A stretch of DNA of 64,000 nt from Psococerastis gibbosa (lineage: Eukaryota > Arthropoda > Insecta > Psocodea > Psocidae), in assembly GCA_963971405.1 (NCBI GenBank), contig OZ020489.1, positions 33,637,047 through 33,701,046 on the forward strand. The letters are read 5' to 3'. Position 1 is the stretch's first letter, and every line of letters starts with the position of its first letter. The notes beneath the pieces are model-generated. The model ran no database searches, had not been told where the DNA came from, and worked only from the letters and a program-made list of their open reading frames with translations. Positions 4,549 through 59,244 of this stretch are shown here, in pieces. The translations under genes were made by a program, and so were the position numbers.

Positions 4549-4711
4549 AGGCGGGGATTCCATATACGTCAATCGTCAATGAAAAATTGAAATGACGTTT
4601 TAGCAGACATTAAAGACATACTAAAAATTCTGCTACCACGTCAATTTACTTAATTTTGACGTCATTTTTAAATTTTTCATTGACGATTGACGTATATGGA
4701 ATACCCGCCTA
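4549..4711. mobile_element. Hairpin MITE, family G copy 1
   Basis: This is a nearly perfect palindrome. The left arm starts AGGCGGGGATTCCATATACG and the right arm ends with its complement. The loop holds the core shared by all G copies: TTTAGCAGACATTAAAGAC and CTGCTACCACGTCA. Arms contain CGTCAATCGTCAATGAAAAA. No coding capacity. Confidence 0.85.
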
Positions 4712-4769
4712 ACCAGGCGGCGCATTTTCAACCGTACCACCACAATGTCACTAATGTCTGTACTTGGTT

Positions 4770-4945
4770 AAGTCATGCTTTCGCCTGTTTCATTGCGTCA
4801 ATGATAAGCTTGTCTTAGCTTGCCCATTATCACTTGTACCCGGTGTAGGTTGACATCGAGGGTGTATACCAGTTTGCCAATGGCCAAAAATTCATAAGGA
4901 AACAATGCAAACAATATCCGAAATCCATGGGGTCATTGGCATTTA
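4770..4945 (+). repeat. Dispersed repeat family K, copy
   Basis: Contains the family K markers GTGTAGGTTGACATCGAG, CAGTTTGCCAATGGCCAAAA and GTCCGAAATCCATGGGGTC. Related copies are at about 5220-5340, 6170-6303, 33120-33370, 38530-38680 (minus) and 54333-54575. No inverted ends were identified, so the element class is unknown. Confidence 0.6.
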
Positions 4946-4957
4946 CAGTTACATGGC

Positions 4958-5217
4958 TCTGGACTTCTGGTGTGGCTCCACTCGGCTAAGGCTATAGGTG
5001 TCTACTCTTCCACAGAAAATAAGTAATAATCACTGATTCCTAAATTACTACTAGTACTGATACTTACTAGGCCCCAGTGATTTAACATGTTAAAATATTT
5101 ACTCTGCTTCATTTGATTTCAATATACACTATGCACGGTTCTCAGAAGGTTTGTGGGTCGCTAGAACCGTGAAAATTGGCTCCACATAGGCCTAGGAAAA
5201 AAAGGTTCCCAACCCCT
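4958..5217 (+). repeat. Dispersed direct repeat L, copy 1
   Basis: Shares about 260 bp with 6898-7165, including ACTTCTGGTGTGGCTCCACT, CTCTTCCACAGAAAATAA, TATACACTATGCACGG and CTCAGAAGGTTTGTG. Both copies end in an A-run followed by AAGGTTCC. This may be a MITE or SINE; the class is not determined. Confidence 0.7.
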
Positions 5218-5219
5218 TG

Positions 5220-5340
5220 GCCCTTGCTCGCACCTTGTCCATTATCGCTTGTAGCCGGTGTAGGTTGACATCGAGGACGTACAGGTATATACCAGTTTGC
5301 CAATGGCAAAATATTCATACGGAAACAATACAAAGAACCG
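5220..5340 (+). repeat. Family K partial copy
   Basis: Carries TAGCCGGTGTAGGTTGACATC, a CGAGGACGTACAGGTATATACC segment and GTTTGCCAATGGCAAAA, matching the 5' half of the copies at 4770 and 54333. It immediately follows repeat L copy 1. Confidence 0.55.
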
Positions 5341-5435
5341 GTCCGAGTTTACTCGAACATGTTTTCCAATTTATAAATTAGTAGATAGACATAATAAATA
5401 ATTTCCCTATGGTTAAATTTCAGATCCCTCGGGGT

Positions 5436-5454
5436 GGGGGGGGGGGGGGGGGGG
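5436..5454. repeat. Poly-G run
   Basis: An almost pure G run of about 18 bases in an AT-rich setting. Similar G or C runs recur through the window, usually inside hAT-like MITEs. Confidence 0.9.
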
Positions 5455-5759
5455 TTCCACCTCAATCTATTAAAAAAACCTTAAAACTCAATTGCATATT
5501 CTGGAACGAACAGACCAATACATTGTAACAGTAGTAACAATGACACAATGTCATGGCACATAATGTATTGGAGCGTGAATTTTCCATAATTTCTTCAAAA
5601 AATAATTTTTTGCACAGAATCAAATATTTTTTGGGGAATGCAGCCAGTCCGGTTTTATTACTCTATTGAACACCTAAAACCTACCTGAAAGTAGAAATCA
5701 TCGATAGAAAGGTTCCGCAGAAACATTATTTTTTAGTCATTTTTCATGAAAATTGAGTT

Positions 5760-6160
5760 ATTTTTATTTTTTTACACCCAGAAGCAAACTATTAAGGGGC
5801 AAGTGACCCCTCGCATTTTGTTAACATTAATAACAACTACAATATATGTGAATTTAAAAGAAATCGTAGGAGCCGTTTTTGAGAAATAATTTTTTTAGAC
5901 GTTTTTTGGAGTTTCATGAGAATAAAACCCCCAAATTGAGTTAGCCCAAAATAAAAAAATAATTCCGAGGTATGATTTTTGTGAACCTATATGAAAAATT
6001 TCATCAAAATCGGCTGGTAGTTTGGCCGGAAATCGATGAACAGACAGACAGACACACAGACGGACATACAGACAGACAGAGTGACAGACAGACATTTCGT
6101 AAAAATCACTTTTTTGGGTTCCTGGGACCTCAAAACGTGTAAATCCGTTGAAATTTTCGA
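5760..6160 (+). mobile_element. RTE-type LINE 3' end relic with CAGA microsatellite
   Basis: AAATTTCATCAAAATCGGC (about 5996-6014) followed by a CAGA-rich microsatellite (about 6040-6095) and then a T-rich stretch with GGGACCTCAAAACGT is the arrangement I know from 3' ends of RTE-like LINEs in arthropod genomes. No ORF of the element survives. A shorter, diverged counterpart lies at about 7200-7300 on the other side of the window's first gene-free block at 37200-37300. Confidence 0.55.
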
Positions 6161-6169
6161 CCATCACAA

Positions 6170-6303
6170 AGCTTTCCTTATTGCCTACTACGTATAAATT
6201 GGAAAGCAATAGTGTCCGAAATCTATGGGGTCGTTGGCCTTGGACAAGAGACCTATGGGCCACAATATATCGTATAAATAGGTCCATAAAAAGTTCTTCA
6301 GGA
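6170..6303 (+). repeat. Family K 3' half
   Basis: Contains GTGTCCGAAATCTATGGGGT, GGACAAGAGACCTATGGGCC and the 3' end CATAAAAAGTTCTTCAGGAC. This matches the 3' halves at 33240-33370 and 54485-54570. Confidence 0.6.
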
Positions 6304-6305
6304 CA

Positions 6306-6327
6306 TTAATATTATTATTATTATTAT
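6306..6327. repeat. (ATT)n microsatellite
   Basis: About seven ATT repeats directly after family K. Confidence 0.9.
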
Positions 6328-6897
6328 GGTTTTAAAAGAAACAAAAAAAAAATACCCCCACTACGTGTTTTTCGATGCTCACAGGAAATATCAATAAGAA
6401 TAGCCCTTAAATTATCAGAAATGCTCCTCTGCATACATGACACGTGGCCTTTATGAAATATTAATATACCTGTAGCGAGAGAACTGTCACAAAAAGCACA
6501 TCCCTTTTTGAAATACCTATTTTAATGCATTTAAATTTAGCCGATTTTTTTTATACACTGTGTGCCCCCGCGTGGAGAGTATTTGGACCAACAGCATGTG
6601 ATGTGATGAAATTTAAACCTAAACTGAAATTTAACCCTAAATAAAAAAAGTATTAAATTTCTGCCAATAATTTCCTACATGATACACTGAAAAGGCAACA
6701 GATTCCTGATTGCTGTCCATATTTATGCAAATGAATTGGCGGGCGCCTAATAACAATTTCCCGGGGCCTCCAAGTTATGAAAAAAAAAAAAAAAATAGGT
6801 AGTTTACTTAACATTCATTACCACTCTACTTACACCCGTAATAGGTACTGTAGGTAACCAAAACTAACTATGCGCTAGTTCGGCTCCGGAGCCAACC
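6328..6897. other. Noncoding, degraded repeats
   Basis: AT-rich with a weak family A fragment near 6600-6680 (AAATTTCTGCCAATAATTTCCTA). No gene seen. Confidence 0.5.
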
Positions 6898-7165
6898 AGG
6901 ACTTCTGGTGTGGCTCCACTCGGCTAAGGTTAGATGCCCAAGTCACTCTTCCACAGAAAATAAATAATAATTACTCATTCCTAAATAACTACTTATACTT
7001 ACTAAGCCCTAGTAACACAGTAGTACTATACACTTAGGTTTTGTGCTTTAAAATGTTTACCCGGCTTCGTTTGATTTGAATATACACTATGCACGGCTCT
7101 CAGAAGGTTTGTGAGTCGCTAGAACCTTTAAAATTGGCTCCATTAAAAAAAAAGGTTCCAACCTC
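6898..7165 (+). repeat. Dispersed direct repeat L, copy 2
   Basis: Second copy of the repeat at 4958-5217, about 1.9 kb away in the same orientation, with many substitutions and small indels. Confidence 0.7.
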
Positions 7166-7443
7166 TGCTCTAGTTCATCCCCTTGTCTATAAGTTAGTTT
7201 TTTTTTGGAGAGACGTTCTAGATCGGATAGGTGCTACTCATAATTTAATTTCTTTCCTCAACAACAGGTACCTCAGAGCCTGAGCAAACGCTAAGGGAAA
7301 TTCCCTAACCAGAGGGACGCAATGTGAAACATAGGTTACAAAATGGGTAAAGCCTACTATACTAAGCACGACCAGTTTCGACCTAAGAAAAGAACTACCT
7401 TATTCCCATATTATACTAGTATATATTGTAGTATTATACTACA

Positions 7444-8613
7444 CTATTGTTGTTCTTTTTTTCTGGCTCTTGATGGGCTTTCGCCTGCTCGACAACACTG
7501 CTCCATTCATCTCGGTTTTGTATACAAATACAATGCTCCACCGTCTACGGACTCCTAACTCGCGAAGGTCAGTTTCCAACTCATCCTTCCAGCAAGCAAA
7601 CAAAAGGTACCTCTTCTTCTTCTTCTTCTCCTTCTTCTGGCTCTACAGCCCTTGATTAGCTTTGGCCTGCATGACTACACTCCACCAGTCATCTTGGTTT
7701 TGTACAACGCTCCACCGTCTACGGACTCCCAACTCGCGAAGGTCAGTTTCCAACTCATCCTTCCAGCAAGCAAACAACAGGTACCTCTCCTTCTTCTTCT
7801 TCTGACTTTACAGCCCTTGATGAGCTTTGGCCTGCACGACAACACTCCTGCAGTCATCTTGGTTTTGTACAATGCTCCACCATCTACGGACTCCCAACTC
7901 GCGAAGGTCAGTTTCCAACTCATCCTTCCAGCAAGCAAACAAAAGGTACCTCTTCTTCTTCTTCTTCTCCTTCTTCTGGCTCTACAGCCCTTGATGAGCT
8001 TTGACCTGCATGACTACACTCCACCAGTCATCTTGGTTTTGTACAACGCTCCACCGTCTACGGACTCCCAACTCGCGAAGGTCAGTTTCCAACTCATCCT
8101 TCCAGCAAGCAAACAACAGGTACCTCTTCTTCTTCTTCTTCTTCTGACTTTACAGCCCTTGATGAGCTTTGGCCTGCATGACAACACTCCTGCAGTCATC
8201 TTGGTTTTGTACAATGCTCCACCATCTACGGACTCCCAACTCGCGAAGGTCAGTTTCCAACTCATCCTTCCAGCAAGCAAACAACAGGTACCTTTTCTTC
8301 TTCTTCTGGCTTTACAGCCCTTGATGAGCTTTGGCCTGCACGACAACACTCCTGCAGTCATCTTGGTTTTGTACACAATGCTCCACCGTCTACAGACTCC
8401 CAACTCGCGAAGGTCAGTTTCAAACTCATTCTTCCAACAAACAAACTACAAGTACCTCTTCTTCTTCTCCTTCTTCTGGCTCTACAGCCCTTGATGAGCT
8501 TTGGCCTGCATGAATACACTCCACCAGTCATCTTGGTTTTGTACAACGCTCCACCATCTACGGACTTCCGGTCAGTTTCCAACTCATCCCTCCAGCAAGC
8601 AAACAACAGGTAC
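7444..8613 (-). repeat. Tandem array of seven LINE 3' ends
   Basis: Seven head-to-tail units of about 160-175 bp start near 7444, 7610, 7784, 7949, 8122, 8291 and 8457. On the minus strand each unit encodes the last ~45 residues of a LINE reverse-transcriptase ORF (pattern DELETDLRELGV, RRWWSV, then QAKANQGL and a stop) followed by a (GAA)n tail. The long plus-strand open frame over the array is a by-product of the repeat. A solo copy with a target duplication is at 13921-14093. Units 2+3 and 4+5 form near-identical ~340-bp dimers. Confidence 0.85.
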
Positions 8614-9870
8614 CTACTGTATGACAAGTGTATTCGAGGTATGTCGGCAGGTCTATACCACTGCTGGGCTGATGACCAGGCAGACTGACCACTTTCTCCA
8701 GTGCTCTTAGCCTAAATTCAGACCATCAACATAATGACTCGGCGTCGTGCTCTTCAAAGCTGTCAATACACTTCTATACTTGAATGGGTTCCTCACTGTT
8801 ATTATGCAGCCATAAATGTAGTCATAAATCTTTAAAAAGTTATTGAAGCGGTCATGTACAGTATGCCCATATCAGTGGCGTAGCGTGCCTTGGCGGGGCC
8901 CCGTATAAAAATTTGTTTAGGGGCCCTTATGAAGGGTATAGATTTCCCACAAAGGAAAAAAATGTTTGCATAAAATTAAAAGAAATATTTATTCATCATA
9001 ATTATCTATCTGTCACTTTTTTAATTTTTTTACAAACAATTCAAATTAGGGTGTTGCCTACCTTTGAACGTACGCATTACGCGGGAAAAAGAGAAATTCC
9101 TTTTTTTGACTTTGGCATTAAATTCTGAAATAATAAAAAATTTGGGTAGTTTTTATTAATTTTTGCTTACGCACGTACGGCAGATACGGATACTTGTAAG
9201 AATTCGTCTTGTATATACTACTTGTAAGAGTCAGTCTAAATCAGTGCATAGGTTGAAAGTTTACCCCAGGCTACTAACCCTTCCGTTCCGGGGTTGCTAA
9301 ATACCTGCCTAGGTCTCACTGACTCCATCCTTTGCCAATGGCAAAAACATAGGCATTGACGCAATACCTGCGAGCTTACAGCTGTATTTAATTCAAACTG
9401 GGATTGAAAATTAAACAAAATAATTTATTAATCAATTTGTCTGGGTTCGCCCACATGGAAAATAAAGACAATTTTTGTTTTTCTATCTTTCTTTATTCTA
9501 AAATTGGTTTGTTTACGTTTTTAATCCCACAATACGTTATTCTTTAAACGGCATGGCAAGCCCGCTGCAGCCCTATTATTGTAGCGATTTGGGATTATTT
9601 TTAGAATTATTTATAGGGTTTATTTAATTGTGGAGCTTGGTTACAAACGTGGCAACTCCATTTTTTTACAAAATGGGGTTTTGATCCGACCTTGAAAAAA
9701 CTTTTAATGCCCACCTGCACGTTCTAAAGTAAAGTGACAAAAGCAGCCAGATTGCGCACAGAAGCGCTGAGAAGTCTAGGGTTACCTATAAACTTAATGC
9801 AATTTTCAACAGAAAATTCACTCTCCTGAAAAATTCTACAACTTGGAGTTGGCCATGTTCTGTAACTTAT
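8614..9870. other. Noncoding with repeat relics
   Basis: CAGTGGCGTAGC at about 8874 looks like an hAT-type terminus, followed by GC-rich GGCGGGGCCCC and an AT-rich body; the partner end was not found. A minus-strand family K fragment lies at about 9320-9365 (TTTGCCAATGGCAAAAACAT). No gene seen. Confidence 0.45.
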
Positions 9871-9890
9871 TTTTGGACAAATATAGCTTT

Positions 9891-10127
9891 TACTGCGAAC
9901 CTATAGGCTATCTTGGAATCCCTCCCTTAAATATCTAAGCCGTTAGTGTTCGAAATGTAAGCTACCTAACAGTTTTATGATTCATGATTATTACGAATTG
10001 TACGGTAACTAATCTTTGTACGAATATTGCTTACTTATTGAATACTGCGAGCCTATAGGCTATCTTGGAATCCCTCCCTTAAATATCTAGACCGTTAGTG
10101 TTCGAAATGTAAGCTACCTAACAGTTT
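9891..10127 (+). repeat. 152-bp tandem duplication
   Basis: The block 9891-9975 (from TACTGCGAACCTATAGGC to CTACCTAACAGTTTT) is repeated at 10043-10127 with a few substitutions. Sequence after each block is also related (ATTATTAC..GTACGGTAA), so the unit is about 152 bp. A further related piece is at about 13215-13260. Confidence 0.8.
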
Positions 10128-10184
10128 ACTCATTATTATTACACATCGTACGGTAAACATAATAGTCACCTTAGTAACTTTGTA

Positions 10185-10373
10185 AAACTTGCTGTCACTC
10201 ATTGTTAAAATTAATAACTTTGTATAGTTTTACGTAATAAAATAAAATAAAAACATACACAACCGGTTTCGGCTCACGCCATCGTCAAGTGTCATTGAAA
10301 ACAGATAAAACAAATAGGTATGCAAGCTAAAACAAAACAAAACTCATTGTCAGGATAACACACAGCATCGCAT
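10185..10373. repeat. Left arm of a ~3-kb inverted repeat
   Basis: From about CACTCATTGTTAAAA to CACAGCATCGCATA, this is the reverse complement of 13030-13212. It includes GGTTTCGGCTCACGCCATCG and TTACGTAATAAAAT. The two arms enclose an hAT-like MITE and a LINE, so the structure is a fold-back element, or a palindromic element later opened by insertions. Confidence 0.8.
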
Positions 10374-10388
10374 AAAGTTGGCGTTGGC

Positions 10389-10658: not shown

Positions 10659-10713
10659 GCGTTGGCGCTTCCATTGGTTAATGTTTAATTGTTCAATTTA
10701 AATTGTTTACTTT

Positions 10714-11766
10714 ATGCGGAATAGGAATAGAAGAAAGAAGAAGAGAAGAAAGGGAAGAGCAAGAAATGACGTAAGTAGAAAGACGATGATCCGCTTCGCC
10801 TCACTTAACGTGGGCTCGATGACAGGCAGAAGCTTGGAAATTGTAAAGACTATGCAAGCCAGGAAAATCAATATATTATGTGTCCAAGAGACCAAATGGA
10901 CAGGTGAAAGAAGCCGAGAACTGGGAGATGGATACAAACTAATATACTATGGAAGGGAGAGTAAGAGGAATGGAGTAGGAGTCATTCTGGAACCCAGCCT
11001 GAAGGATTCTGTAGTCGAAGTAGAGAGACGAAGTGATCGAATTATTTTATGCAAACTCATTTTAACGGACAAGTTAGTGTTAAATGTTATCAGTGCCTAT
11101 GCCCCGCAAGTGGGGTGCACGGGTGAAGAAAAAGAAATTTTCTATCAGGAGTTAGATGACCTAATGCGGAAAATACCGGACAATGAATGTCTTATAATCG
11201 GAGCAGATATGAACCGGCATGTTGGGAAGGACAGCGATGGGTACGAGGGATGCCATGGCGGCCGCGCTTTCGGGGTAAGAAATGAAGCAGGAAAGACCCT
11301 ATTGGAGTGGGCGGTATCACAAGACTTGTGGCTGGCCAACACATGGTTCTTAAAACGAGATGAACATTTAATTACATACAAGAGTGGTAACGCGAAAACG
11401 CAGATCGACTTCATAATTATGAAAAAGACGCAAAGAAACTGCTGTTTGGACTGCAAAGTTATCCCGGGGGACCCAATCGCAGAACAACACAGGCTTCTTG
11501 TCGCAGATTTGCAGTTTAAAGGAAGAAGGAATAGACAAGTAGAACTGCAGCCGAAAATAAAGTGGTACTTGCTCCAGAGCGACCAAGACAAGAGAGAGGT
11601 GTTTAAGCAGCGAATTGAAGAGCATTTACAAGGCCTAGATGCACAATGGCAAAACCTTACAGCAAATGATGTTTGGGTCTCATTCCAAAGAAACGTAATA
11701 TGTGAGGCCGAAGAAGTACTTGGCAAGTCGAAGGGGGGCAAGAAGATAGAGCGGGATGCCTGGTGA
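10714..11766 (+). CDS. LINE endonuclease domain, open frame
   Basis: This 350-residue open frame is the intact 5' part of the LINE above. It starts with a lysine/arginine-rich segment (residues 1-23) and holds the complete endonuclease domain (about 25-265) with all expected catalytic residues, then a linker ending at the premature TGA. The start is the first ATG in frame; since 5' truncation is common, the true start is uncertain. It lies inside the fold-back structure 10185-13212 and belongs to a mobile element, not the host. Confidence 0.75.
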   Translation: MRNRNRRKKKRRKGRARNDVSRKTMIRFASLNVGSMTGRSLEIVKTMQARKINILCVQETKWTGERSRELGDGYKLIYYGRESKRNGVGVILEPSLKDSVVEVERRSDRIILCKLILTDKLVLNVISAYAPQVGCTGEEKEIFYQELDDLMRKIPDNECLIIGADMNRHVGKDSDGYEGCHGGRAFGVRNEAGKTLLEWAVSQDLWLANTWFLKRDEHLITYKSGNAKTQIDFIIMKKTQRNCCLDCKVIPGDPIAEQHRLLVADLQFKGRRNRQVELQPKIKWYLLQSDQDKREVFKQRIEEHLQGLDAQWQNLTANDVWVSFQRNVICEAEEVLGKSKGGKKIERDAW

Positions 11767-12915
11767 TGGAACGAAGAGGTACAGAAAGCCCTGAAGGAAA
11801 AGAAATGCGCTTTTAGAGCATGGCAAGGTGATAGAGTGCCTGAGAAGCATGAAGAATATAAAAATTGCAAGAGACTGGCGAAGAGAACGATAAGGGCAGC
11901 AAGGGACCAGGCTACACAGAGGTGGTACGAAGAATTGAGCACGAGAGAGGGGGAGCAGAAGATCTACAAAATAGCTAAAAATAAAGCAAAGCTGCAGCAG
12001 GACATGGGAGCTATAAAATGTATCAAGGATGAGGCAGGACGAGTACTAACAAAAAGCGATGATATTACGAAAAGATGGAGAGACTATTTTGACACGATTA
12101 TGAACACTGGGGGAACAAGAGAGGAGTGGCAGGAAGACGTGTGCGAGGGACCCGTGCAGGAGTTTGACGAAGAAGAAGTCAAGAAGGCACTCGACAAAAT
12201 GAAAAGAGGAAAAGCAGTGGGACCAGACAATGTACCAATTGATGTCTTCAAGGCACTGGGGAGCAGTCGCCAAGATGCTGAAGCTAACCTGAATACATGG
12301 GTAAAAACGCTGGAGAAGGAGGGACTGAAAGTGAACAAAGATAAGACGGAGTACATGGAGTGCGTTAGACAGGAGCCGGGATCCATCAGCATAGGCACTC
12401 ACACAATAAACAAGACTAACAAATTTAAGTACCTGGGCAGTACTATTGAACAGAATGGCGGATGTGAAGATGATGTCAAATGTCGAATTAAGGCCGGGTG
12501 GATGAAATACAGGGATATGGCACCTATATTGACGGACCGCAAGATGCCGATGAAACTCAAAGGCCGAGTGTATAAACAAATGGTACGTCCGAGCATGCTA
12601 TACGGGTCGGAATGCTGGCCACTCAAAAGGGTAGAGGAGAATATGCTACATGTAGCCGAAATGCGTATGTTAAGAAGAGCATGTGGCTTTTCTCTGATTG
12701 ACAGAGTGAGAAACACCGACATAAGATGCCAAATGAGAACACGAGACATCCACGAAAAGCTGCGAGAAAGACGACTAAGCTGGTGGGGGCACGTCGAGAG
12801 GAGGGGGGACAACGAGTTGATAAAAAGAGTGCGATCAACACCCGTACCAGGAACCGGAGCACGTGGACGACCAAAAATCTCACTGGCGAGTAAAAAACAC
12901 GGAAGGACCTACTAA
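10714..12915 (+). pseudogene. Broken RTE/BovB-type LINE: endonuclease plus truncated RT
   Basis: Non-LTR retrotransposon ORF for an apurinic-type endonuclease joined to reverse transcriptase, which together nick DNA and copy the element RNA. Endonuclease residues are visible in the first part: N32 (SLNVGS), E59 (QETKW), Y129 (SAYAPQ), D165 and N167 (GADMNR), D232 (QIDFII) and H259 (EQHRLL), the last being the RTE/BovB variant. A TGA at 11764-11766 interrupts the frame, which then continues in phase to 12915. In the RT part, GPDNVPIDVFKALG is followed directly (near 12260) by the region just before GLKVNKDKTEYME and FKYLGSTI, so the fingers, palm and the catalytic DD motif are missing, about 170 residues by family comparison. 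The C-terminus (RRLSWWGHVERRGD, GRPK) is kept. It cannot be autonomous. Similar proteins are often mislabelled craniofacial development protein 2-like. Confidence 0.9.
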
Positions 12916-13212: not shown

Positions 13213-13289
13213 CTACGGTAGCTAATCTATGGACAAATATGGCTTTTACTGCGAACCTACTATGCCGCTTGTAAATAACTTAGCCATGG

Positions 13290-13530: not shown

Positions 13531-13740
13531 GTTAAGAAGGCATACTACGTAGAAAATTAGCACCCCAAAATTTGTTGTTTTATTGAATTTTTATTTTTTA
13601 TTTAATTAACAAAGCAATTTATAAAAGATTTGGCTCATGCAAGTTGTAGAAGACTACTTCATGCATAATATAAAAGTAAGTTTAAAAAAAAAATCACGAA
13701 ATGTAAAAATACCCTATTACATTTTTACTCCCAGGTTAAG
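13531..13740. mobile_element. Family A half copy
   Basis: Has TTAGCACCCCAAAATTTG, TTTAATTAACAAAGCAA and GATTTGGCTCATGCAAGTTG, then TGTAGAAGACTACTTCATGC. Only one arm is clear; it runs into family F sequence (TTACTCCCAGGTTAAGATT). Confidence 0.6.
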
Positions 13741-13761
13741 ATTAAAAATATTCACCACATA

Positions 13762-15483: not shown

Positions 15484-15870
15484 TTAAGGCGCCCATTCCA
15501 TTGACCGGCTGGGGCTATTTCCAAAAACAGTGACGTGGTAGCAGACATTCAAGACTTAGGTTGTTTTTCCACCGATCTCGCATTGCAGAATGCAAATGAC
15601 ATTGACGGAAAATATAATTTTTCTTTTTATAGAAATCTATTTAAATGTTTGTACTTAACATATCCCATGACGCCATTTTTTAATTTTAGTTTGTTTGTGA
15701 TTTTACTGTATGATCATTAATCAATTTTAACTATGGCATAGAGGAAAATAAACATTTCCGTCAATTCTGCAATGCGAGGTCGGTGGAAACGCCACCTAAG
15801 TCTTGAATGTCTGCTACCCCGTCACCGTTTTTGGAAATAGCCCTAGCCGGTCAATGGAATGGCACCTTAG
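15484..15870. mobile_element. Nested hairpin MITE, family G copy 6
   Basis: Outer arms AAGGCGCCCATTCCATTGAC and the complementary right end, with core GTGACGTGGTAGCAGACATT. Inside the loop a second palindrome begins TTTCCACCGATCTCGCATTG and closes with CAATGCGAGGTCGGTGGAAA. The same two-tier structure occurs at 38849 and 39308. Confidence 0.8.
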
Positions 15871-19574: not shown

Positions 19575-19945
19575 CGCCTTAAGAGTAGGAAAGTGGCAGC
19601 CCGAAATGTAATACTTTTTATTTTAAGTTTAATTAACTGAGCAAGTTATTAAAGATTTGGCTCACCAAAGTTGTAGAAGGCTACTTTATGCAATAAGGAA
19701 TTTTTAATTTTCAAAATTGTAGCTTTTTTATAAAATCGATTACCTATACGTGAAAAGTTATTGTTTATAAAGTATTTCCATGTTTCTGAAAAAACTACAA
19801 TTTCGAAAATTAAAAATATCTTATTATAATATGATGCATGTAGTCTTCTACAACTTTGATGAGCCAAATCTTTAATAACTTGCTTAGTTAATTAAATAAA
19901 AAGTACTAAATTTCGGGGTGCCATTTTCCTACGGGCTGTACACCG
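19575..19945. mobile_element. Family A copy 2
   Basis: Left arm CTTAAGAGTAGGAAAGTGGC, right arm ending TCCTACGGGCTGTACACC. Inner arm markers TTATTAAAGATTTGGCTCA and the complementary TGAGCCAAATCTTTAATAA are present, with a central AAAGTTATTGTTTATAAA. The right TTAA end is lost. Confidence 0.8.
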
Positions 19946-20370: not shown

Positions 20371-20604
20371 GCAGAAGAACACTGGCAAGATTTTATTACT
20401 TTCGTAGAAAATTATTAAACAACTAATAGGCCCGTTTTGGAGTGCCACATTTCCAACGGTCCATGACCTCTCAATAAGATATACTACGTAGAAAGTTTGG
20501 AACCGCAAAATTTTATATTTTTATTTATTCAATTTACTAAGCAAGTTATTGAAGATTTAGTCCTTGATCCTAAGTTGTAGAAAACTACTATATACATCCT
20601 CATT

Positions 20605-21162: not shown

Positions 21163-21293
21163 AAATGATGCACGGAGTGGTCTTCCACAATTTAAATGGG
21201 ATGAATCTATAATAACTTCCTTCGCCATTTAAATAAAAAAAAAAATAAAAACAACGGATTTTGTAGTGCCAATTTTGTATATAGCATATCCTC

Positions 21294-22720: not shown

Positions 22721-22904
22721 TAGTCTCATCAGTAAATTTATATTTTCTCACATGAAATATTATTACTCAAGAAAAACAAGTTATAAAGTGATTTATACTT
22801 ATTTTATGCTATATTGTACTACTGCAGTAAAATAATTAAGCAGTGCTGTGAGCAAACTTGTATTTGTACGCATTTTTCATCTGGACATTTTTAATGCATC
22901 TTTA

Positions 22905-23475
22905 AGAGTGTACGTTCCATAGAAAATTGGCAACCCGAAACGTATTACTTTTTATTTTTTTATTAATTAACTAAGCAAGTCATAATGATTTGGCTCATTT
23001 AAGTTGGAGTAGACTACATCGTGCATCATATAACAGGGAATTCGATTTTTGATTCCGTATAACATTTCGATAAAAATTATTGACTGCTAAAATTTCACAT
23101 AAAACATATATACTATCAAAAAAACTACAAAAATAAAAATTAACAATACCCTATTTTATGATACATGAAGTTATCTTCCACAACGTAAATGAGCCAAATA
23201 TTACTTACTTACTAGCCAACGCCCGCTCTTGGCATTTCTGCCATTAAGCGCCGCGCTGACCAGTATAGATGTGCCGTGAGTGGTGCTCCTGTTAGTGGTA
23301 GTGTCCGCCTTCCCTCGGTCAGTATTGGGCAGCTATATAAGTGGGATGCATCCATGGTGTGGAAGTCACAAAGTGGACAGGCCGGTGACTGCCTGATGAG
23401 CCAAATATGTTTGCTTAGTTAATTAAATAAATAGTAAAAAGTATTTTGGGCTGCTAATTTCCTAGGGGTACACTG
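22905..23475. mobile_element. Family A copy 3, interrupted
   Basis: Left end TTTAAGAGTGTACGTTCCAT, right end GGGCTGCTAATTTCCTAGGG. The arms are normal family A; the right arm is broken at ATGAGCCAAATAT by a LINE fragment. Confidence 0.75.
23202..23395 (-). mobile_element. 5'-truncated LINE 3' end with 13-bp target duplication
   Basis: Flanked by ATGAGCCAAATAT at 23189-23201 and 23396-23408. The minus strand encodes SPACPLCDFHTMDASHLYSC, a C-X2-C..H..C knuckle typical of LINE ORF2 C-termini, through to a TAG at 23214-23212, then an AGTA-repeat tail. The encoded domain differs from the LINEs at 10714 and 13921, so this is a separate family. Confidence 0.88.
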
Positions 23476-30526: not shown

Positions 30527-31888
30527 TTAGTCCCTACCTACACGTTTATGCATCTGCTGATGCTTGATAAGGTGAGCTTTCTGCCGGAAAGGTTTGCTGC
30601 AAACGTCACATCGAAAAGGTTTCTCACCTGTGTGGGTTCGCAGGTGGACCTTGATATTGCTCTTGTTGAGGAACCCACGGCTGCAGATACTGCACCTGTG
30701 AATCGGCTTCTCCTTCCCCAGCATCCCAACCCCATCAAACACCATTTGACTATTCTTCTTATTGCTACGGCTCTTTGATTTCTTAGGAGGAAGGTTTACT
30801 GTGGTCGTGTGAGGGAAATTAGTACTAACTATACAATCTAAAGAACTACTATTCACAAGCATGTCCGGCGATGGGACCTTCAGCCCGCGATAAGGTGGAT
30901 AGTTGTTGCGGTTTCGGTTTTGAACGTAACGGCCGTTGAGAAGAAGATTTTCCGTCGTGCTGACATGCCCAGGAGGACTTCCACCGTTGAGATAGCTGGT
31001 GGAACTCGTGGCATGCTCTTGGATCATTTTGCAGTTTTGTTCACTTGTTAGTCTGTTAGCCAGGATCGACGACATATTCGCTTGGAAGTTTGTTGTCGGT
31101 TCTTGCTTCACATTCTCCGTATGTATCCCATACTGGCTCCCATGTTGTAGCAGCTCTTGTAAAGCTACAGAACCTCCTTCACCGCCACCCGCTTGAAAAT
31201 TTGAATAGTTTCCATCGCTTTTATGTTCACTTGTTAACAAAGCATCAAGCCAATTGTCTCTGTCGGTTGTATCGTCCAGACCATCAACTACACTGGGCAC
31301 TGTAGTGTCGGCCATGGTAGGACCAAGAATGTCGTCTAGATCCTCAGGCAGGTAGGCCCCGTATTCAGCTTCGATTTTGATCTCGGGCACAGTTGAAGAA
31401 ACAACGCCTTGCTCAGGAGCTGAAGTGCTCACTTCGTAGTACAATGTTGCACCATTGTTTTTATACATTACAGAAGACAATGAGTTATTTCCACTACTGT
31501 TGTTGTTGTTATTATTGGCACCACCTAAAACGTTATTGTTTGCTTCAAGGGAGGGCGTAGGGCTGGGAGGCTGCTGGTTAGCTATTGCGTGGAAATGGTG
31601 ACCCGAAATACCATTAATGCTAAGGTTACCCGTGTAGCCCGTGAAAGGTGGAAGAGGTTGAATAGGCTTAAGCTCAGCAAGGCTTCCGTCATGCGAATTG
31701 CCGAGAAGCATTGAGTCCAATGTCTCTAGCGTCTCCATGCTCACTTTCGTCATCTCCTCTTCGCCTTCCAGGAGGAGCTTTGCGCTGCCGTCGAGGAAGT
31801 CGCAAGCTCCTCCTGAACCCCAGTTACTGTTATTGAACAGGCTGTCAACGGGCAGCCCCAGTATCTCGGCCTCACCACCGAACCGCAT
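30527..31888 (-). CDS. C2H2 zinc-finger transcription factor, terminal exon
   Basis: Probable nuclear DNA-binding regulator. The 453-residue frame ends in two adjacent C2H2 fingers: finger 1 at residues 399-419 (CSIC..HLRTH), the canonical linker TGEKPFR, and finger 2 at 427-447 (CDVC..HQQMH), followed by only six residues and TAA. The rest is low-complexity and acidic, as in activation regions: a leucine/acid N-terminus, a segment LPPFTGYTGNLSINGISGHH at about 78-97, an N-rich tract near 121-138, acidic patches near 175-215, and a basic K/S-rich segment just before the fingers (PPKKSKSRSNKK). The ATG at 31888 has A at -3, but the frame stays open upstream to 32078, and that stretch looks coding too, so the true protein is probably longer. 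With two fingers only, DNA contact may be short, or further fingers lie elsewhere. I recognise an arthropod-style factor but not the orthologue. It is the only convincing host gene in the window. Confidence 0.9.
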   Translation of the reverse strand: MRFGGEAEILGLPVDSLFNNSNWGSGGACDFLDGSAKLLLEGEEEMTKVSMETLETLDSMLLGNSHDGSLAELKPIQPLPPFTGYTGNLSINGISGHHFHAIANQQPPSPTPSLEANNNVLGGANNNNNNSSGNNSLSSVMYKNNGATLYYEVSTSAPEQGVVSSTVPEIKIEAEYGAYLPEDLDDILGPTMADTTVPSVVDGLDDTTDRDNWLDALLTSEHKSDGNYSNFQAGGGEGGSVALQELLQHGSQYGIHTENVKQEPTTNFQANMSSILANRLTSEQNCKMIQEHATSSTSYLNGGSPPGHVSTTENLLLNGRYVQNRNRNNYPPYRGLKVPSPDMLVNSSSLDCIVSTNFPHTTTVNLPPKKSKSRSNKKNSQMVFDGVGMLGKEKPIHRCSICSRGFLNKSNIKVHLRTHTGEKPFRCDVCSKPFRQKAHLIKHQQMHKRVGRD

Positions 31889-35212: not shown

Positions 35213-35300
35213 TGAAATGAAATGAAAGCGACTTTATTGCAAATGAACAAAAGGCGAACAATATAAGACTATAAAGTCTTGTTTTTCATGCTAACCTTAA
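35213..35300 (-). mobile_element. LINE/SINE 3' end with (ATTTC)n tail
   Basis: Same segment as 2951-3039, including GACTATAAAGTCTTG and CATGCTAACCTTAA. Confidence 0.65.
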
Positions 35301-40935: not shown

Positions 40936-41384
40936 CTTAAGAGTGTACAGCCCGTGGGAAATTGGCAACCCGAAATTTATTCCTTTTTATTTTTTATTTA
41001 ATTAACTAAGCATGTTATTAAAGATTTGGCTCATCAAAGTTGTAGAAGACTACTTCATGCATCATTGTTCGCCTTTTGTTCGCAATAAAGTCGTTTTTTC
41101 ATTTCATTTCATTTCATCATATTATAAGATAGTTTTAATTTTCGAAATTGTAGTTTTTTCATAAACATGCAGATATTTTATAAACAATAACTTTTCACGT
41201 AAAAGCGATTTTATAAAAAAACTACCATTTCTAAAACTAAAAATGCCTTATTATATGATGCATGAAGTAGTCTTCTACAACTTTAATGAGCCAAATCTTT
41301 AATAACATGCTTAGTTAATTAAATAAAAAATAAAAAGTAATTAATTTCGGGTTGCCAATTTCCTACGGGCTGTACACTCTTAAG
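40936..41384. mobile_element. Family A copy 4 with intact TTAA ends, inside family F
   Basis: Ends CTTAAGAGTGTACAGCCCGT and ACGGGCTGTACACTCTTAAG. The flanks TTTTTAAT on the left and CTGGGATTAAAAATCGCC on the right reconstruct the family F sequence TTAATCTTAACCTGGGATT, with a single TTAA at the join apart from one base. This supports TTAA as the target site. Confidence 0.88.
41066..41114 (+). mobile_element. 49-bp extreme 5'-truncated retroposon in family A copy 4
   Basis: TGTTCGCCTTTTGTTCGCAA then TAAAGTCG and the (ATTTC)n tail, flanked by CATCAT at 41060-41065 and 41115-41120. It is the 3' tip of the element at 2951 and 35213. Confidence 0.75.
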
Positions 41385-44369: not shown

Positions 44370-44765
44370 AAAGTAGAAAATTGGCACACCAAAATTAGTT
44401 GTTTTTATTGACTTTTTATATTTATTTAATTAACAACGCAAGTTATTAAAGATCAGACTAGTTTAATTTGTAAAAGACTACATCATGCATCATATGCCTA
44501 AGGTATCTTTCAATTTTTATACCGTAGCTTTTTTAATGAGAGTTAAAATTTCATGCAATATATAGATACGATAAAAAACAACAAAACCAAAAATTAATAC
44601 TATCCTATAGTATGATGCACGAAGTAGTCTTCTACAACTTAAATGCGCCCAGAGCCGTGCCCCCCCCCCCCCCGAAATAAATTTATGAGCCAAATCTGTA
44701 ATAACTTGCTGAGTTAATGAAATGTAAAATATTTAATTTTGTGGTGCCAATTTTCTTTGTAGCCT
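44370..44765. mobile_element. Family A copy 5
   Basis: Left AGTAGAAAATTGGCACACCA, right TGGTGCCAATTTTCTTTGTA; arms with TTTAATTAACAACGCAAG and TAACTTGCTGAGTTAATG. A C-run-containing insertion of about 40 bp (GCCCAGAGCCGTGCCCCC..) interrupts the right arm near 44646-44684. Confidence 0.75.
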
Positions 44766-45835: not shown

Positions 45836-45894
45836 TTCTGAGATACTACGTCCAGTTAAAAACAATTGGTACTTTGTACTTTGGATAACAAAAA

Positions 45895-53245: not shown

Positions 53246-53633
53246 TATGGGACAATACGAATACAATACACATTTGTAAATCTATCAATGTGTTTTGCAA
53301 TGTAACCAATGTTTGTGGACTCTGAAACGAATGTAGGTACCTATTTTTAAATGAATTGTCCGACAGCCAAAATTAATTGCGAAGATTTGAAACGCCTTCA
53401 ATTGCTATTCCTTTGTCCATCCCATACGGGTCGTTTTCTTGCCATTCTGTCATTTTTAAACAATGCTCGGGGGTGCTGGGATTCACATAAGGCACCCTAC
53501 ATGCCCATTTTTCAATATAGCCATTATTTGTCAAAACATTGAGACAACTTGAGGGTGGCCCTGCCCTAGCCCTAGAGGTATGCAGGCTTGAGAAGAAAAA
53601 AAATGCTTGAAACGTAGGTACACTTAAGGCGGT

Positions 53634-53771
53634 TATTCCACCGACGTCAATAGTGATAGTAATAGTGTGATTGACGTGGTAGCAGGCATTAAAGACAGTC
53701 TAAAAATGTCCGCCACCACGTCAATATCAGCATTACTATCACTATTGACGTCGGTGGAATAACCGCCTTAC
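53634..53771. mobile_element. Hairpin MITE, family G copy 5
   Basis: Almost perfect palindrome: TTAAGGCGGTTATTCCACCG with its complement at the end; arms GACGTCAATAGTGATAGTAA, which are unlike other copies; core GACGTGGTAGCAGGCATTAA. Ends fit a TA target duplication. Confidence 0.92.
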
Positions 53772-54332
53772 ACTAGTCATCTTTGGTTCCATCCCAATAA
53801 TGCCAAACTTCCGAGTTTTTATCATGTGAATTTTTGATGTTTTGATATTTACAACTTTTTTTTCATTACATTAATCACCTTGTATAAATATATGCACACA
53901 TTCGAGTATATGGGGAGCCAATACTACGTTGCAAATTTTTTTAGGGAGCTACAAAATATTTTTTCTTGAGAAGTCCTGAATTAAGGTGACAAATCGCCTT
54001 GGTATTACAATTTTACAGCCGCTGCACGAACTAATTTAAGTTTTCAACAAATAGCGTCCAAGATTTAAAAGTATTTTATTTTTATTTAATAATAAAAAAT
54101 TCACATATTTATTATGTTTTGTATAAAGATACTACAATCTCCCTTTCTAAATTAGTATTAATAAATGAAAAAGCCATAATAGTAAAATTAAACAACCCTT
54201 TATTTAAAAATCTGTGTGATACAAGAGGCTCTGAGGTTAGCTTATTTGAAGAGTTGACAGTCTTTTTTCGAAACGGCCCTGAAAATGATTTATGTATACT
54301 TTTTGGGGGTGTCTCATGATGACTCTTATCTG

Positions 54333-54575
54333 TACGTGGTTAAGTCATGCTTTCGCCTGTTTCATTGCGTAAGTGGTAAGCTTGTCTCAGATTGTCCATT
54401 ATCGTCTGTAGCTGGGGTAGGCTGACATCGAGGACGTATTTCAGTTTACCAATGGCCAAAAATGCATACAGAAACAATACGAATAATGTCCGAAATCCAT
54501 GGGATCGTTGGCATTGGACAAGGGACCTATGGGTAAGTAGGCCTGAGTTCATAAAAAGGCTTCACATGATCACAT
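54333..54575 (+). repeat. Family K, longest copy
   Basis: Runs from GTTAAGTCATGCTTTCGCCT through GACATCGAGGACGTATTTCA, ATGTCCGAAATCCATGGGAT and GGACAAGGGACCTATGGG to CATAAAAAGGCTTC. Confidence 0.7.
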
Positions 54576-55129
54576 GTTAGGGTTATTGTCTTCGAAAGTA
54601 CTTGGAGAGCTGCAACAGGCTCTTGCTTTGATAAGTTAAAAAAACTCCGTGCCATGACAACCCGTTGAAGTTCTAATCCTCTCTTAACCAGTAAACTATT
54701 TGGTATGTGGTCAACTATATGCCCGGCAGCCGAGTTTTTTCCCTACCGATAAAGATAAGTAATACTAAAGGGTTGCGTCTACCTAGGCCCGCCGACAGCC
54801 ACGTATGCAGAGGGGGGTTTTGGGGGGTTTGAGGTTCAACACTCCCCCGAAAATGTTTCGATTTACACTAGATACAAATGAGTGTGCTTCAGGCCTCGCT
54901 CTATGATGGGCCTCACTCTCGACCTCAATTTCGCTCGTAGTTATTCACAAATATCCTCCTGGGGGAAACCCCCTGTTTCACTACTTTCAAAATAGGTAAA
55001 TCCACCCCTGTAGTTTTAGAAAAATTCCCCCGAACCCCATGTTAATAATCATTTCAACATATATTAGTCTAAAATCGAAGCTTTACAGCTGATAAAATGC
55101 ATAAGGGGTTTATTCAAATGAAGGGGTCA

Positions 55130-55335
55130 CCACGACTTCGGTGGCAGTGTGGTAGCGTGCTTGTACTTGTGCGAGGGTCTACACACCTTGCGGTCGGAGA
55201 CGTGTCGTAACTCGACACAAGTACCTATATTATAGGTGACTTAGTGAGGCGACTAAAGAGGTTAACCGGATACATTCATTAAATTGTTTGTATGCGTTTA
55301 ACCTCTTTTAAAAAAGAATAAAAAAAAAAATATTG
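55130..55335 (+). mobile_element. SINE2, best copy
   Basis: TTCGGTGGCAGTGTGGTAGC then GTGCTTGTACTTGTGCGAGG; TGCGGTCGGAGACGTGTCGT at the B-box position; then GTGACTTAGTGAGGCGACTA, TACATTCATTAAATTGTTTG and an A-rich tail. The head has an A-box-like TGGCAGTGTGG and a poor B box, so tRNA origin is likely but not certain. Confidence 0.75.
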
Positions 55336-57087
55336 GGCCTATTTTTTAAAAATTTCCTTCTAGGCCTAGAACTAACTTGAAGCACACATAAAATCTAACC
55401 ACCACCCCCCCCCCCTTTCTCCAAAATCTAATCCTGCAAACGTGACTGCGGCCGCCAGAAAATTTCATTTTTATGTCGTCGTGAACCTCCGTTTCTAAGC
55501 CCACGTCTCTATGAACTGGACTATTCGGAACCACAGTTGCTGCTGTAATATAGGCCAAAATCGCATAACATTCTTCCTGTCATTCATGAATAACCATGCT
55601 GTTATGACTCATCGACCGTTTACGACCTCCCCACTTTCTTTGCGAACACAGAAAAGTTGGTTTTTTTTGTGAATGAAAATTTATTTTTAATTTTTTGACT
55701 CAACATAATCTAAAAAATTCATTTTTTTTTTCGACCTGAGGACCAACACCATATATACATATCTAACTGCTTCCCTCCCCTACAATTTTGTTCATCCAGA
55801 TGTGTCCGGCCTATTTATTACTAATTGGTAGGGTAGGTTACGGCCAAACCTTCTCTTGAAGAAAAAGAATATTTTGAGGAAGCAAACCCTCAGATAAAAT
55901 AGCCCCCTTCTGGCTCTATAACATGAACTTAACTCTGTCCTTGGGCTGTCCTTTTTATTTGCAACAAGTGCAGTATACGATATGCCTAGTAAACAAACCT
56001 AAAGATAAAACTGCTTCTGTTATTCTACCTACCACCCCGGTTGTAGGGTGGGCATATAGATTTAAAACATAGTTCCTACCTATAAAAGGTATCAAGTATC
56101 CATTGTATCCAAAATATCCAGAAGCGCACGTATTTCCGAATAATTTTCCAGTCCAGTAAGAACTTGTACACCAGAACAGTCCAGATTTGCAATCAAGCGC
56201 ACTTGGAAAATTCTATAAACTTCACACAAAAATTAAGGCAACCCCCAAAATTAGGTTATAGGAACCACAAAAGTCAAAATGCACTTGCACCCCGTAAGAA
56301 TCAGCTAAACACTGATTTCAAGAGCGGCCGTGAGCGTGGAGTACCTCCCCTCCTCCAAGGATGTACCCCTCTTGCAAGGTCCTACATCAAGGGCAATAGA
56401 CTTTGGTGTAACACTTTTCTAGGAATCATAAAGAGACGACTGTGGCAGTGAGAATACATTGTGCGGCTCGTTCAATTTACAAACATCCATATGTAAGAAC
56501 CAATTCGTATAAAGTACCCATAGTACACGGTAAGAGCATTGAATTGGGTACCTCTTTACGAAAACGCGTAAGAAACGCTAAGAAGATGAATCTTGATGTG
56601 CAAAAGCAGTGTCTTTGGGTGAAGACTTAGGCTGAATAGAACTGGAGGAATGTCCATGACTGCGCAGTGTAAGGTGACGGTGAATGCGATTGCAACAGCT
56701 CGGAAGGGCGACTCTTCACGTAGCCGAGTTCTTGAACTTGGGAGCGGAGAAATGGGAGAAATGAGAAATGGGAGAGGACATTGCGCATGCGTGTGTTTTG
56801 ATTATGAGGCCGATTGATAAGCAGTGGGCTGAGATTTTAGACTGGGTTGAGTCATAACTGGTACCTGGAGCAGATTTCGCAATGTTTTGCCGGAAATGGG
56901 TCACCTATTTGACCTTCATAGAACTGCCCAGTTAAAAAACCATGCTGCAAATTGCAAGACAGCTGCGGTAGCCAGGATTTTCTTCTTCCCTCCCCCAGTA
57001 TGGGTGCAATTTATTTTCTAAGTACATCATTTTGCGAGACAGCTCGGCGATTTCTGCAAAACGTTTTTACAGTATAGTAGGCCTAGG
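55336..57087. other. Noncoding, no supported gene
   Basis: C run at 55405-55416. Two consecutive plus open frames, 56164-56451 (95 codons) and 56442-56630 (62 codons), lie in a somewhat GC-richer stretch with no domain I recognise; an old transposon ORF is possible. AGCCAGGATTTTC at about 56973 resembles the hAT-like end at 10393. Confidence 0.4.
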
Positions 57088-57262
57088 ACATGGACGGATA
57101 CAGGGAGGGGCAGGGGGAAGCTGCCCCCCCCCCCCCGCCCAAAAATTGGTAAATCTATTGTAAGTTAATTTACTCCGCTCTGATTTAATCGATGCTACAT
57201 AAGTTTTCCTATTTTGACCCACAACTACCCCCCCCCCAAATTGGGCTGGATCCGTCCCTGGC
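57088..57262. mobile_element. MITE family P, best copy
   Basis: Left ACATGGACGGATACAGGG, right GGCTGGATCCGTCCCTGG, with C runs, TTGGTAAATCTATTG, ACTCCGCTCTGATTTAATCG and TTTTGACCCACAACTACC between them. About 175 bp. Confidence 0.75.
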
Positions 57263-57303
57263 CTAGGATACATATCTACTAGTACTTTTCTTCTTTAAAA
57301 TAA

Positions 57304-57490
57304 AGGTTAAATCGCATACAAACAATTTAATGAATGTATCCGATTAACCTCTTCAATCGCCTCACTAAGTCACCTAATACTATTAGGCTAATAGGTACTG
57401 GTGTCGAGTTGCGACACGTCTCCGACCGCAAGGTGTGTAGATACTCGCACAAGTACTAGCACGCTACCACCTTGCCACCGAAGTCGCAAA
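57304..57490 (-). mobile_element. SINE2 copy
   Basis: GGTTAAATCGCATACAAACA, ATCCGATTAACCTCTTCAAT, GTGTCGAGTTGCGACACGTC and GCACGCTACCACCTTGCCAC: inverse of 55130-55300. Confidence 0.8.
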
Positions 57491-57591
57491 GGGAGGTTGG
57501 ATTGGGATTTATGTCTTGTCACGGGTGCATGACTATTTCTAAGAAAATTTGTGAAATTTTTACTGAAAAGCAACTTAACCAACATTAATTA

Positions 57592-57710
57592 GTCAGGACA
57601 TGCAGAGTAGTGGTACAGACTCCGACTTTCACCCGAAAAGTTGTTGGTTCGAGTCCCACACTTGCCACATTTTCTGGCCATGCTTCGGAGGGCATGTAAA
57701 TGTAAGTTTT
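57592..57710 (+). mobile_element. SINE1 copy, 3'-truncated
   Basis: GTCAGGACATGCAGAGTAGT, GACTTTCACCCGAAAAG, B box GGTTCGAGTCC and TTCTGGCCATGCTTCGGAGG; it stops at GGGCATGTAAATG. Confidence 0.85.
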
Positions 57711-58939
57711 GGATGTACTCAGATATTAAGACATATAGTAGAATTTTCATCATTTTAACCATATAACTTTCTCAAATTTATAATTTGAATTGTAAACATT
57801 TTCAGGATAGTGCATAATAGAGTATTTTACATGCCAGTATATTGAATACTAAAAATTAGGCCTTATTTCCCTAATTTGGCCTGTTTATCACAAATTTTAC
57901 CCCCTTTTGTCACTTCTACCCATATAAGTATTTCAGCGCCTAAACGTCTAAAATTGGTAATGATTATGGAAAATGATCTGGGCTAGATACCCAGAGTATA
58001 TGAGTAGGACATACTATAGTAAGCTAGGTTTAAGCTATTAGTAAGAATAAAATATGAATCAATATTTTTCAAACAAACCATTTTTTTAACGCAAAAAATA
58101 AGAATTAATAAATTACCTTACTACAGCCAAAAAATGTAAATATTTTTGTTCTCAAATTTTCATACCAACTACTTAAAAATTTTACGTAAACGTTACGTAA
58201 AAAAAATAAAAACGAAATAAGCCCACGATGTCGAGGAAGAAAGACATAACCCATGAATACCCTAGCATCAATCTGCGCGGCATGGATGGAAATGGAATAT
58301 GGTCAATATGAATCTCGATCTACTGATCAGTGATCTACTGATCTAACTGATCTAGTACCCTTACAACTTTCAAGGGGTGAGGTTTAGTCTTTTTCCCGCT
58401 GGGTCTCGTTCGTAATTTTTACGCGGAATTTTCAGAGTATTTTCTTTGAAACAATACACCATTGAAATCATATCGGTGATGACCGGATTTAGGATTTGAG
58501 AGTGGGGGAGGGGCAGTTTAGAAACGAAGCATGTTTCGTATTATTTTATATATTTAATATAAAAAAGGGTTTTAAAAACAGAAATTGTACGCTATAAACC
58601 AATCGATAGATTGAAACTCTAGAAGAAGATTGTTCTACTTTAGCGTCATTTATTTATTCTTCGTATTCACCCCCCCTCCCCCCGCCTCCCAATCAGGTAT
58701 TGTCTTCGCCATCATAAGTAAAGTCATGTAAAGATCCTAATTTTAGACAATGCAGGTTCGCACGCTACTTACTCTTCTGCAGGTTCACACGCTCCTATTA
58801 TTCGGACCACTAGCAATGGCATTAATAGCAATAGTATACTGGACTTATACTAACATCAAACATTTATTTTTAAGTGTGTCCTGGTGCCCAGAACACAGAA
58901 TCTGGGCATTATGCAGTAGCCTACGTCCGAGTGAAACTG
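57711..58939. other. AT-rich noncoding, nothing recognised
   Basis: A short GATCTACTGATC/AACTGATCTA cluster at 58313-58356 is a small imperfect tandem repeat. No gene. Confidence 0.5.
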
Positions 58940-59244
58940 CAGTGGCGTAGCCAGAATTTTTTTTTTTTTTTTGTCCAGTTTTCATAAAGTTTGCTTGCTT
59001 AGGCGCTTATTCCACCTACGTCAATACCACATTTACTATAGACTATTGGCGTAACTGGAATAAGCGCCTTACGATAGGTTTTCGAATGGGGTGGTGATTT
59101 TGCAGACTTTATTAACAAAACTGGAAAAGGGGGAACGGGGTCTCCCCGGCGATTTGTTTGAAGATAAATACCCACTATTTTGCTAAATTTTGGGAGGGGG
59201 GGTCCGGACCCCGCTGACCCCCCCCCCCCTTGGCTACGCCACTG
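58940..59244. mobile_element. hAT-like MITE with a hairpin MITE inside
   Basis: Ends CAGTGGCGTAGCCAG (58940-58954) and TTGGCTACGCCACTG (59230-59244) are inverted. A T run follows the left end and a C run precedes the right. No clean 8-bp duplication seen. Family G copy 11 is inside. Confidence 0.8.
59000..59071. mobile_element. Hairpin MITE, family G copy 11 (72 bp, smallest)
   Basis: TAGGCGCTTATTCCACCTAC then GTCAATA, with right arm TATTGGCGTAACTGGAATAA then GCGCCTTA. It lacks the GTAGCAGACATT core, so it is an internal-deletion form. Confidence 0.8.

Follow-up and report, generated by a model that had tools for sequence, protein, structure and literature searches.

Miniature inverted-repeat transposable elements (MITEs) of the Tourist-like kind typically have inverted ends that start with GG. 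Tourist MITEs, moved by PIF/Harbinger transposases, are described as targeting TWA (PMC12595863), and TTA/TAA is given as the target of mPing (PMC4561436). Copying between the two arms of an inverted repeat has been described in other settings as template switching: it is reported in yeast to homogenize the arms and invert the spacer (PMC8604942) and in RNA genes to maintain stems (PMC8794818), and quasipalindrome correction in Escherichia coli is described in the same terms (PMC7202029). Here we analyze eleven elements, C1 to C11, most of them hairpin MITEs, in a 64,000-nucleotide stretch of the Psococerastis gibbosa genome (contig OZ020489.1, positions 33,637,047 to 33,701,046 of the forward strand; hereafter the window). 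We conclude that their hairpin arms are probably rewritten, one from the other, by replication-coupled template switching. That the copying proceeds through replication, and not through recombination or transposition, is something we infer: arm homogenization together with spacer inversion is known from template switching (PMC8604942), and this makes the replication-coupled route the most likely one.

Whole-element comparison defined two groups. Group A consists of C1 (4550–4709), C3 (24570–24712), C4 (24871–25032) and C5 (25402–25563), all on the forward strand and 143–162 nucleotides (nt) long, with spans given here and below without the target site. Group B consists of C2 (15488–15866, a composite hairpin) and C7 (38851–39222), both on the forward strand, and C8 (39311–39684), which is inverted; these are 372–379 nt long. 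One asymmetric loop is common to C2, C7 and C8, with 2–4 differences per 118–137 compared sites, and another is common to C1, C4, C5 and, in inverted form, C3 (24631–24651, reverse strand). Because the asymmetric loops are common to the copies, the palindromes predate the copies in both groups. The same loops rule out, within A and within B, that we are dealing with distinct families that merely share tips.

For each pair of copies, site patterns were counted in three classes, copy-wise, arm-wise and crossed, which are given below in that order. Independent mutation would spread chance coincidences equally across the three classes, and shared history would add arm-wise sites. The pair C2-C7 yielded 7:2:0, or 7:0:0 inside the arms; its arm-wise sites, like those of all group B pairs, sit at columns 126–127, just outside the arm. 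Bases private to one copy and present in both of its arms are TT at columns 14–15, C at column 34 and T at column 74 in C2, and G at column 7 and AA at columns 31–32 in C7. In group A, counted over the first 36 columns with copies oriented by their tips, the pairs that include C1 gave 3:0:0 (C1-C3), 4:0:0 (C1-C4) and 0:0:0 (C1-C5). At one third for each class, the probability of seven out of seven for C2-C7 is 0.00046 and that of four out of four for C1-C4 is 0.012; with the two edge sites of C2-C7 restored, seven out of nine has a probability of about 0.008 by our own arithmetic. We also simulated independent arms that were identical at the start, under four rate-variation settings with 20,000 runs each and with per-branch changes of 0.06 and 0.08 that we chose from the observed distances. 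At least seven copy-wise sites were seen in none of the runs and at least four in at most 0.075%.

A second line of evidence comes from the loop of C3. The tips of C3, C4 and C5 have an asymmetry in common (left ...GGT-ATTCCA-TAT, right GGTGCCC-ATTCCA-CAT), and relative to these shared tips the loop of C3 runs the opposite way. When the copies are oriented by loop, the counts become 1:0:4 for C3-C4 and 0:0:4 for C3-C5, the four crossed sites in each being the inversion itself. The two arms of C3 are identical from column 15 inwards as far as the loop, and the differences of its inner arms from the other copies recur on either side, substitutions as well as length differences (concordant columns 37–51). 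C1 has two arms of one type (type 1), with both tips of the left type, and C4 has two of another (type 2), with an altered left tip. C5, an exception that the initial annotation of the window did not mention, is a hetero-palindrome: its left arm is of type 1 and differs from the left arm of C1 at 2 of 49 positions, its right arm is of type 2 and differs from the right arm of C4 at 0 of 51, and its own arms differ from each other at 9 of 51. Type 1 arms are similar in their opening part to C10 and to C11 at its left end (ACGTCAAT), so that type 1 is probably the older of the two. C5 then looks like the intermediate, and C4 and C3 like outcomes of an overwriting of the left inner arm by the right one that spared the tips.

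The initial annotation had described arms that match almost perfectly within each copy and differ strongly between copies, and had suggested comparing the two identities. Carried out on the copies in the window, this comparison bears the description out at the tips and gives a mixed result for whole arms, where the degree of matching had been overstated. At the tips, taken as three variable bases plus the 12 bases after ATTCCA, the two ends of a copy match each other at 127 of 165 positions over the 11 copies; the permuted mean is 72.7, and not one of 100,000 permutations was as high. When each lineage is represented by one copy (six in all), none of the 720 pairings but the true one gives a total as high as that observed. 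For the three variable bases by themselves the effect is weaker: 20 of 33 match, a value reached by 3,037 of 100,000 permutations. Over the whole arms, C5 is the least well matched copy of group A, the others having mismatches at 2 of 49 (C1), 5 of 51 (C3) and 6 of 51 positions (C4), and those of C3 and C4 are all confined to the outer 14 columns. In group B the corresponding values are 8 of 112 (C2), 12 of 124 (C7) and 5 of 107 (C8), or 4.7 to 9.7%. For a column-pair statistic, assessed by shifts and by permutations, the outcome was extreme in group B (0 of 123 and 4 of 20,000, respectively), in group A (0 of 50 and 0 of 20,000) and also in a second palindromic family flanked by TTAA (0 of 206 shifts), where the ends of one copy, P3, are misaligned. 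Because sites differ in rate, this statistic comes out too extreme and was set aside, and we therefore rely on the site-pattern test.

A number of observations weigh against arm-to-arm copying. The loop inversion is a single case, and the alignment of the inner arms of C3 to other copies is uncertain. The other group B pairs are weaker (C2-C8 2:1:1, C7-C8 3:1:1), and three group A pairs are dominated by arm-wise sites (C3-C4 1:4:0, C3-C5 0:4:0, C4-C5 0:5:0); these lie in the tips, at columns 3–14, and arise because the tips of these copies were not homogenized. In group B, mismatches between the arms of one copy (25 of 343, 7.3%) are only moderately below those between the same arm of different copies (73 of 697, 10.5%), arm a of C2 and C8 differs at 7 of 118 positions, which is lower than the value for the two arms of C2 itself, and concordance is lacking in 21 of the 28 variable columns. 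Two of the seven copy-wise columns in group B (15 and 74) could be parallel CpG decay; the other five are not CpG transitions, and CpG decay was rejected as a full account. The clearest pairs were picked after the alignment had been seen. The sample is eleven copies from one window, in which the independent events are tracts and not sites, so that neighboring sites may record one event. The odds that we attach to arm-to-arm copying and to its rivals overlap. The earlier proposal that the arms are kept matched by copying is supported in groups A and B by the 7:0:0 and 4:0:0 pairs, the inverted loop and the two-sided changes of C3, with the qualification that the matching is partial in C5 and in much of group B.

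The arms of group B also differ more than the loops. Differences in the arms and in the loop are 34 of 236 versus 4 of 118 for C2-C7 (p = 0.001), 21 of 231 versus 2 of 118 for C7-C8 (p = 0.006) and 18 of 230 versus 4 of 137 for C2-C8 (p = 0.07), two of the three pairs thus falling below 0.01. An effect of CpG was rejected as the cause, as the direction is the same without CpG sites (26 of 198 versus 4 of 120, 18 of 197 versus 3 of 120 and 12 of 198 versus 5 of 139, respectively). Clustered matched changes would make the arms diverge more than the loops, and other causes are possible.

A second palindromic family provides a limited comparison. Its copies are P1 (2450–2841), P2 (40936–41384) and P3 (about 19585–19943), with a further stretch at 22902–23202 and fragments near 13548–13680, 44373–44756, 20487–20598, 21165–21240, 23396–23474 and 62357–62451. 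P1 and P2, the only two copies with clear ends, end in TTAAGAGTGTACAGCCCG and have TTAA on both sides, which we take to be a piggyBac-like pattern. With a 58-nt insert removed from P2 and the opening 30 alignment columns dropped, P1-P2 gave 4:0:0; the family as a whole is equivocal and in this respect counts against us, with 1:1:0 for P1-P3 and 1:0:3 for P2-P3. The comparison hints, though not strongly, that arm copying is shared by more than one family. P2 also contains a repeat of about 60 nt (41064–41123) with further matches at 2946–3004 and 35213–35262.

In the mechanism that we propose, the nascent strand at a stalled replication fork would fold back or jump to the other arm, copy it and then switch back. 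Each event would transfer a tract from one arm to its partner and so erase the mismatches in it, and the arms would stay similar because one arm now and then templates the other. A template switch could also introduce a change of several bases into the two arms together, and the position of the switches would decide whether the loop inverts. We rank second, as unlikely, the regeneration of arms during transposition, whereby intermediates of excision or gap repair form hairpins that are copied and can give a new arm pair with each jump. It predicts the same signature, and C2 and C7 do each have their own matched changes; against it, the P1-P2 count in the TTAA family hints, weakly in view of the two other pairs, that a single transposase is not responsible. 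A hairpin-based amplification has reportedly been proposed for the Angel elements of fish. Exchange between neighboring copies, by ectopic recombination or conversion and not between the arms of one copy, seems to us improbable as the general explanation. C3, C4 and C5 together span less than 1 kb, C5 joins a C1-like arm to one identical to that of C4, and exchange between C1-like and C4-like copies could alone yield C5, a point against our reading of that copy. To produce matched arms, however, exchange would need two conversions of the same tract, one per arm, and it does not by itself account for the inverted loop of C3.

We hold it to be just as improbable that age alone is responsible, each arm type having arisen in one inverted duplication and been propagated by a single master, so that matching reflects youth. 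The tip asymmetry common to C3, C4 and C5 does indicate that a recent shared ancestry contributes. One recent master per arm type had been named at the outset as the observation that would overturn arm maintenance; it does not fit groups A and B, because there the common loop, and with it the palindrome, is older than the arm differences, and the matched two-arm changes came after. C6, C9, C10 and C11, which have no second copy sharing their loop, are beyond the reach of this argument. Selection on structure, for transposase sites or a silencing RNA, is in our judgment very improbable as the force that keeps the arms complementary: the tips are common to all copies, as expected for transposase binding, but the matched changes sit inside the arms, the two-arm substitutions and length differences of C3 are hard to reach by stepwise compensation, and C5 and group B tolerate mismatches. 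We give least credence to an artifact of assembly or polishing that falsely equalized the arms. Palindromes are in principle prone to such errors, but the arms of C5 and group B retain many mismatches, and elements of 140–160 nt fit inside ordinary short reads. Replication-coupled copying between arms is the account that we consider most likely.

The eleven copies listed in the initial annotation all exist, each with two inverted ends, exact or damaged, at positions that differ by 0 to 6 nt from the starts it gave. Its common end signature was confirmed as GGYGNNNATTCCA, which has 17 exact matches in the window where shuffles lead one to expect 0.18. Each of the 17 is an end of one of C1–C11, and the remaining 5 of the 22 ends are altered forms. 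The core reported in nearly all copies was likewise recovered, GTGGTAGCAGACATT being present within 3 mismatches in 9 of 11 (all but C9 and C11). Outside the two groups, C6 (32588–32837) is a long-armed hairpin of 250 nt whose sole match in the window at an E-value of 1e-3 is itself, and C9 (43201–43632) is a short-ended element of 432 nt, with about 22 nt of paired ends and without a long hairpin. C10 (53628–53767), of 140 nt, is a near-perfect hairpin related to group A, the opening 36 nt being identical between its two arms, and C11 (59002–59068), related to C10, is a 67-nt remnant with 23 predicted pairs. All four are on the forward strand.

Exact 3-bp target-site duplications flank 8 of the 11 copies, TTA in C3, C5, C7, C9 and C11, TAA in C1 and C8 and TAC in C6, so that TTA or TAA makes up seven of the eight; our script scored 7 of 11, and C7 is included only if its right tip is read as GTCGG. 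C4 is flanked by AGA and TTA. In C2 and C10 the left flank is TAA and the right flank TTA, a palindromic and not a direct arrangement, and the inner junctions of group B are likewise of the TAA/TTA type with palindromic flanks. The flanks of C2 and C10 might reflect arm homogenization reaching the target site, or single mutations. The elements span 67–432 nt, and no open reading frame (ORF) of at least 110 amino acids, the listing threshold, lies inside any copy. On this sequence evidence C1–C11 are non-autonomous Tourist-like (PIF/Harbinger-type) MITEs, with ends that start GGCG and mostly TWA duplications, the superfamily being predicted from ends and duplication only; they were presumably moved by a Harbinger-type transposase encoded elsewhere. 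They look like ordinary MITEs, and their interest lies in how the arms change. Pattern searches gave no match to the core in viral_contigs or genome_contigs and none to the tip in viral_contigs. In genome_contigs the tip pattern had six matches, all with bacterial titles and four of them Collinsella; with 19 fixed bases and 257 Gb searched, about two matches are expected by our own arithmetic, and we take the six for chance.

For ten of the eleven elements the folding value is lower than that of any of 30 random window stretches of equal length (for C3, −61.0 against a control mean of −11.1 and a lowest value of −28.0). C9, at −54.5 against a control mean of −52.6, is the exception. The description of the family as fully self-complementary is thus apt insofar as most copies fold back, and too broad for C9, for the remnant C11 and for C2, C7 and C8, which by subtraction have loops of about 125–145 nt. 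A TAGCAG core, present as a variant in C10, starts 50–54 nt from the tip in the arms of group A, group B and C10, with the exception of the right arms of C1, C4 and C5, where it is at 74 nt, and the stretch between tip and core differs from group to group.

Around position 70, each of the six arms of group B has a TTA, after which comes another tip-like sequence, complete in five of them. The inner elements so delimited are at 15559–15796 in C2 (forward strand, beginning after TTA in both arms), 38922–39151 in C7 (forward) and 39382–39613 in C8 (reverse, with one inner tip short by 6 nt). They measure 230–238 nt, and without them the outer parts come to 138–139 nt, corresponding in length to C10 and C3. 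The inner-element interior matches the opposite strand of C9 with a local score of 59, against a maximum of 31 in 200 shuffles, and whole-element comparison of C9 with the group B interior gave an E-value of about 3e-6; on the other strand the score of 29 was not above shuffles. From these sizes and this likeness, it seems that a C9-like MITE inserted in the center of a C10-like hairpin and that the composite then moved as a unit.

The remainder of the window, which has a GC content of 37.7% and an animal-like character, contains a 453-amino-acid ORF (30527–31888) with two Pfam matches to C2H2 zinc fingers near the C-terminal end, of the ORFs scanned the clearest candidate for a host gene. ORFs at 10714–12915 have weak endonuclease and reverse-transcriptase matches, below the Pfam cut-offs, of the long interspersed nuclear element kind. 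A tandem repeat at 7566–8259, in which one 13-mer is matched five times at a spacing of 165–174 bp, falls within a 280-amino-acid ORF (7652–8494) with a repetitive translation. No transposase was found in the Pfam scan of six window ORFs, and searches of the window for tRNAs and for Rfam families at the gathering threshold gave no matches.

More tentatively, and with less than even confidence, we suggest that long-hairpin MITEs may be self-rewriting. Copying would both repair and diversify the stem, so that arms change several-fold faster than loops and yet remain complementary, each lineage acquires a new matched stem, possibly with a new silencing-RNA specificity, loops flip, and MITE insertions at the center are tolerated. 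If this is general, palindromic MITEs could not be dated by arm-to-arm identity, the use of internal sequence to define families would divide them artificially, and double changes that look compensatory in MITE-derived hairpins, including small-RNA genes, would not alone be proof of selection. The many genomic copies would then be natural replicate experiments on arm-to-arm copying. Among the literature matches listed, judged by titles and the starts of abstracts, none dealt with arm homogenization by template switching in MITEs, and one MITE review (PMC12595863) contains neither "template switch" nor "palindrom" nor "gene conversion."

Compared with known systems, C1–C11 resemble Tourist-like MITEs of the PIF/Harbinger type in being short and non-coding, with ends that start GG and mostly TTA or TAA duplications of 3 bp, and differ from them in that several copies have arms reaching nearly to the center and that the sequence from tip to core is group specific. 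The foldback-type element Tm1 of root-knot nematodes is similar in having inverted repeats able to fold, but its repeats are described as composite and variable in length and its duplications as 9 bp (PMC3169594), as opposed to 3 bp here. The perfecting of an imperfect inverted repeat in one event is a feature in common with quasipalindrome correction in E. coli (PMC7202029) and with the stems of RNA genes (PMC8794818), and unlike the latter, the process envisaged here does not require an RNA product. A further parallel to the changes themselves is template switching between arms in yeast, where homogenized arms, multi-base changes and an inverted spacer are all reported (PMC8604942); there, short arms within genes were followed on a strain phylogeny, whereas here the arms are longer, belong to a mobile element and are compared between copies at different sites.

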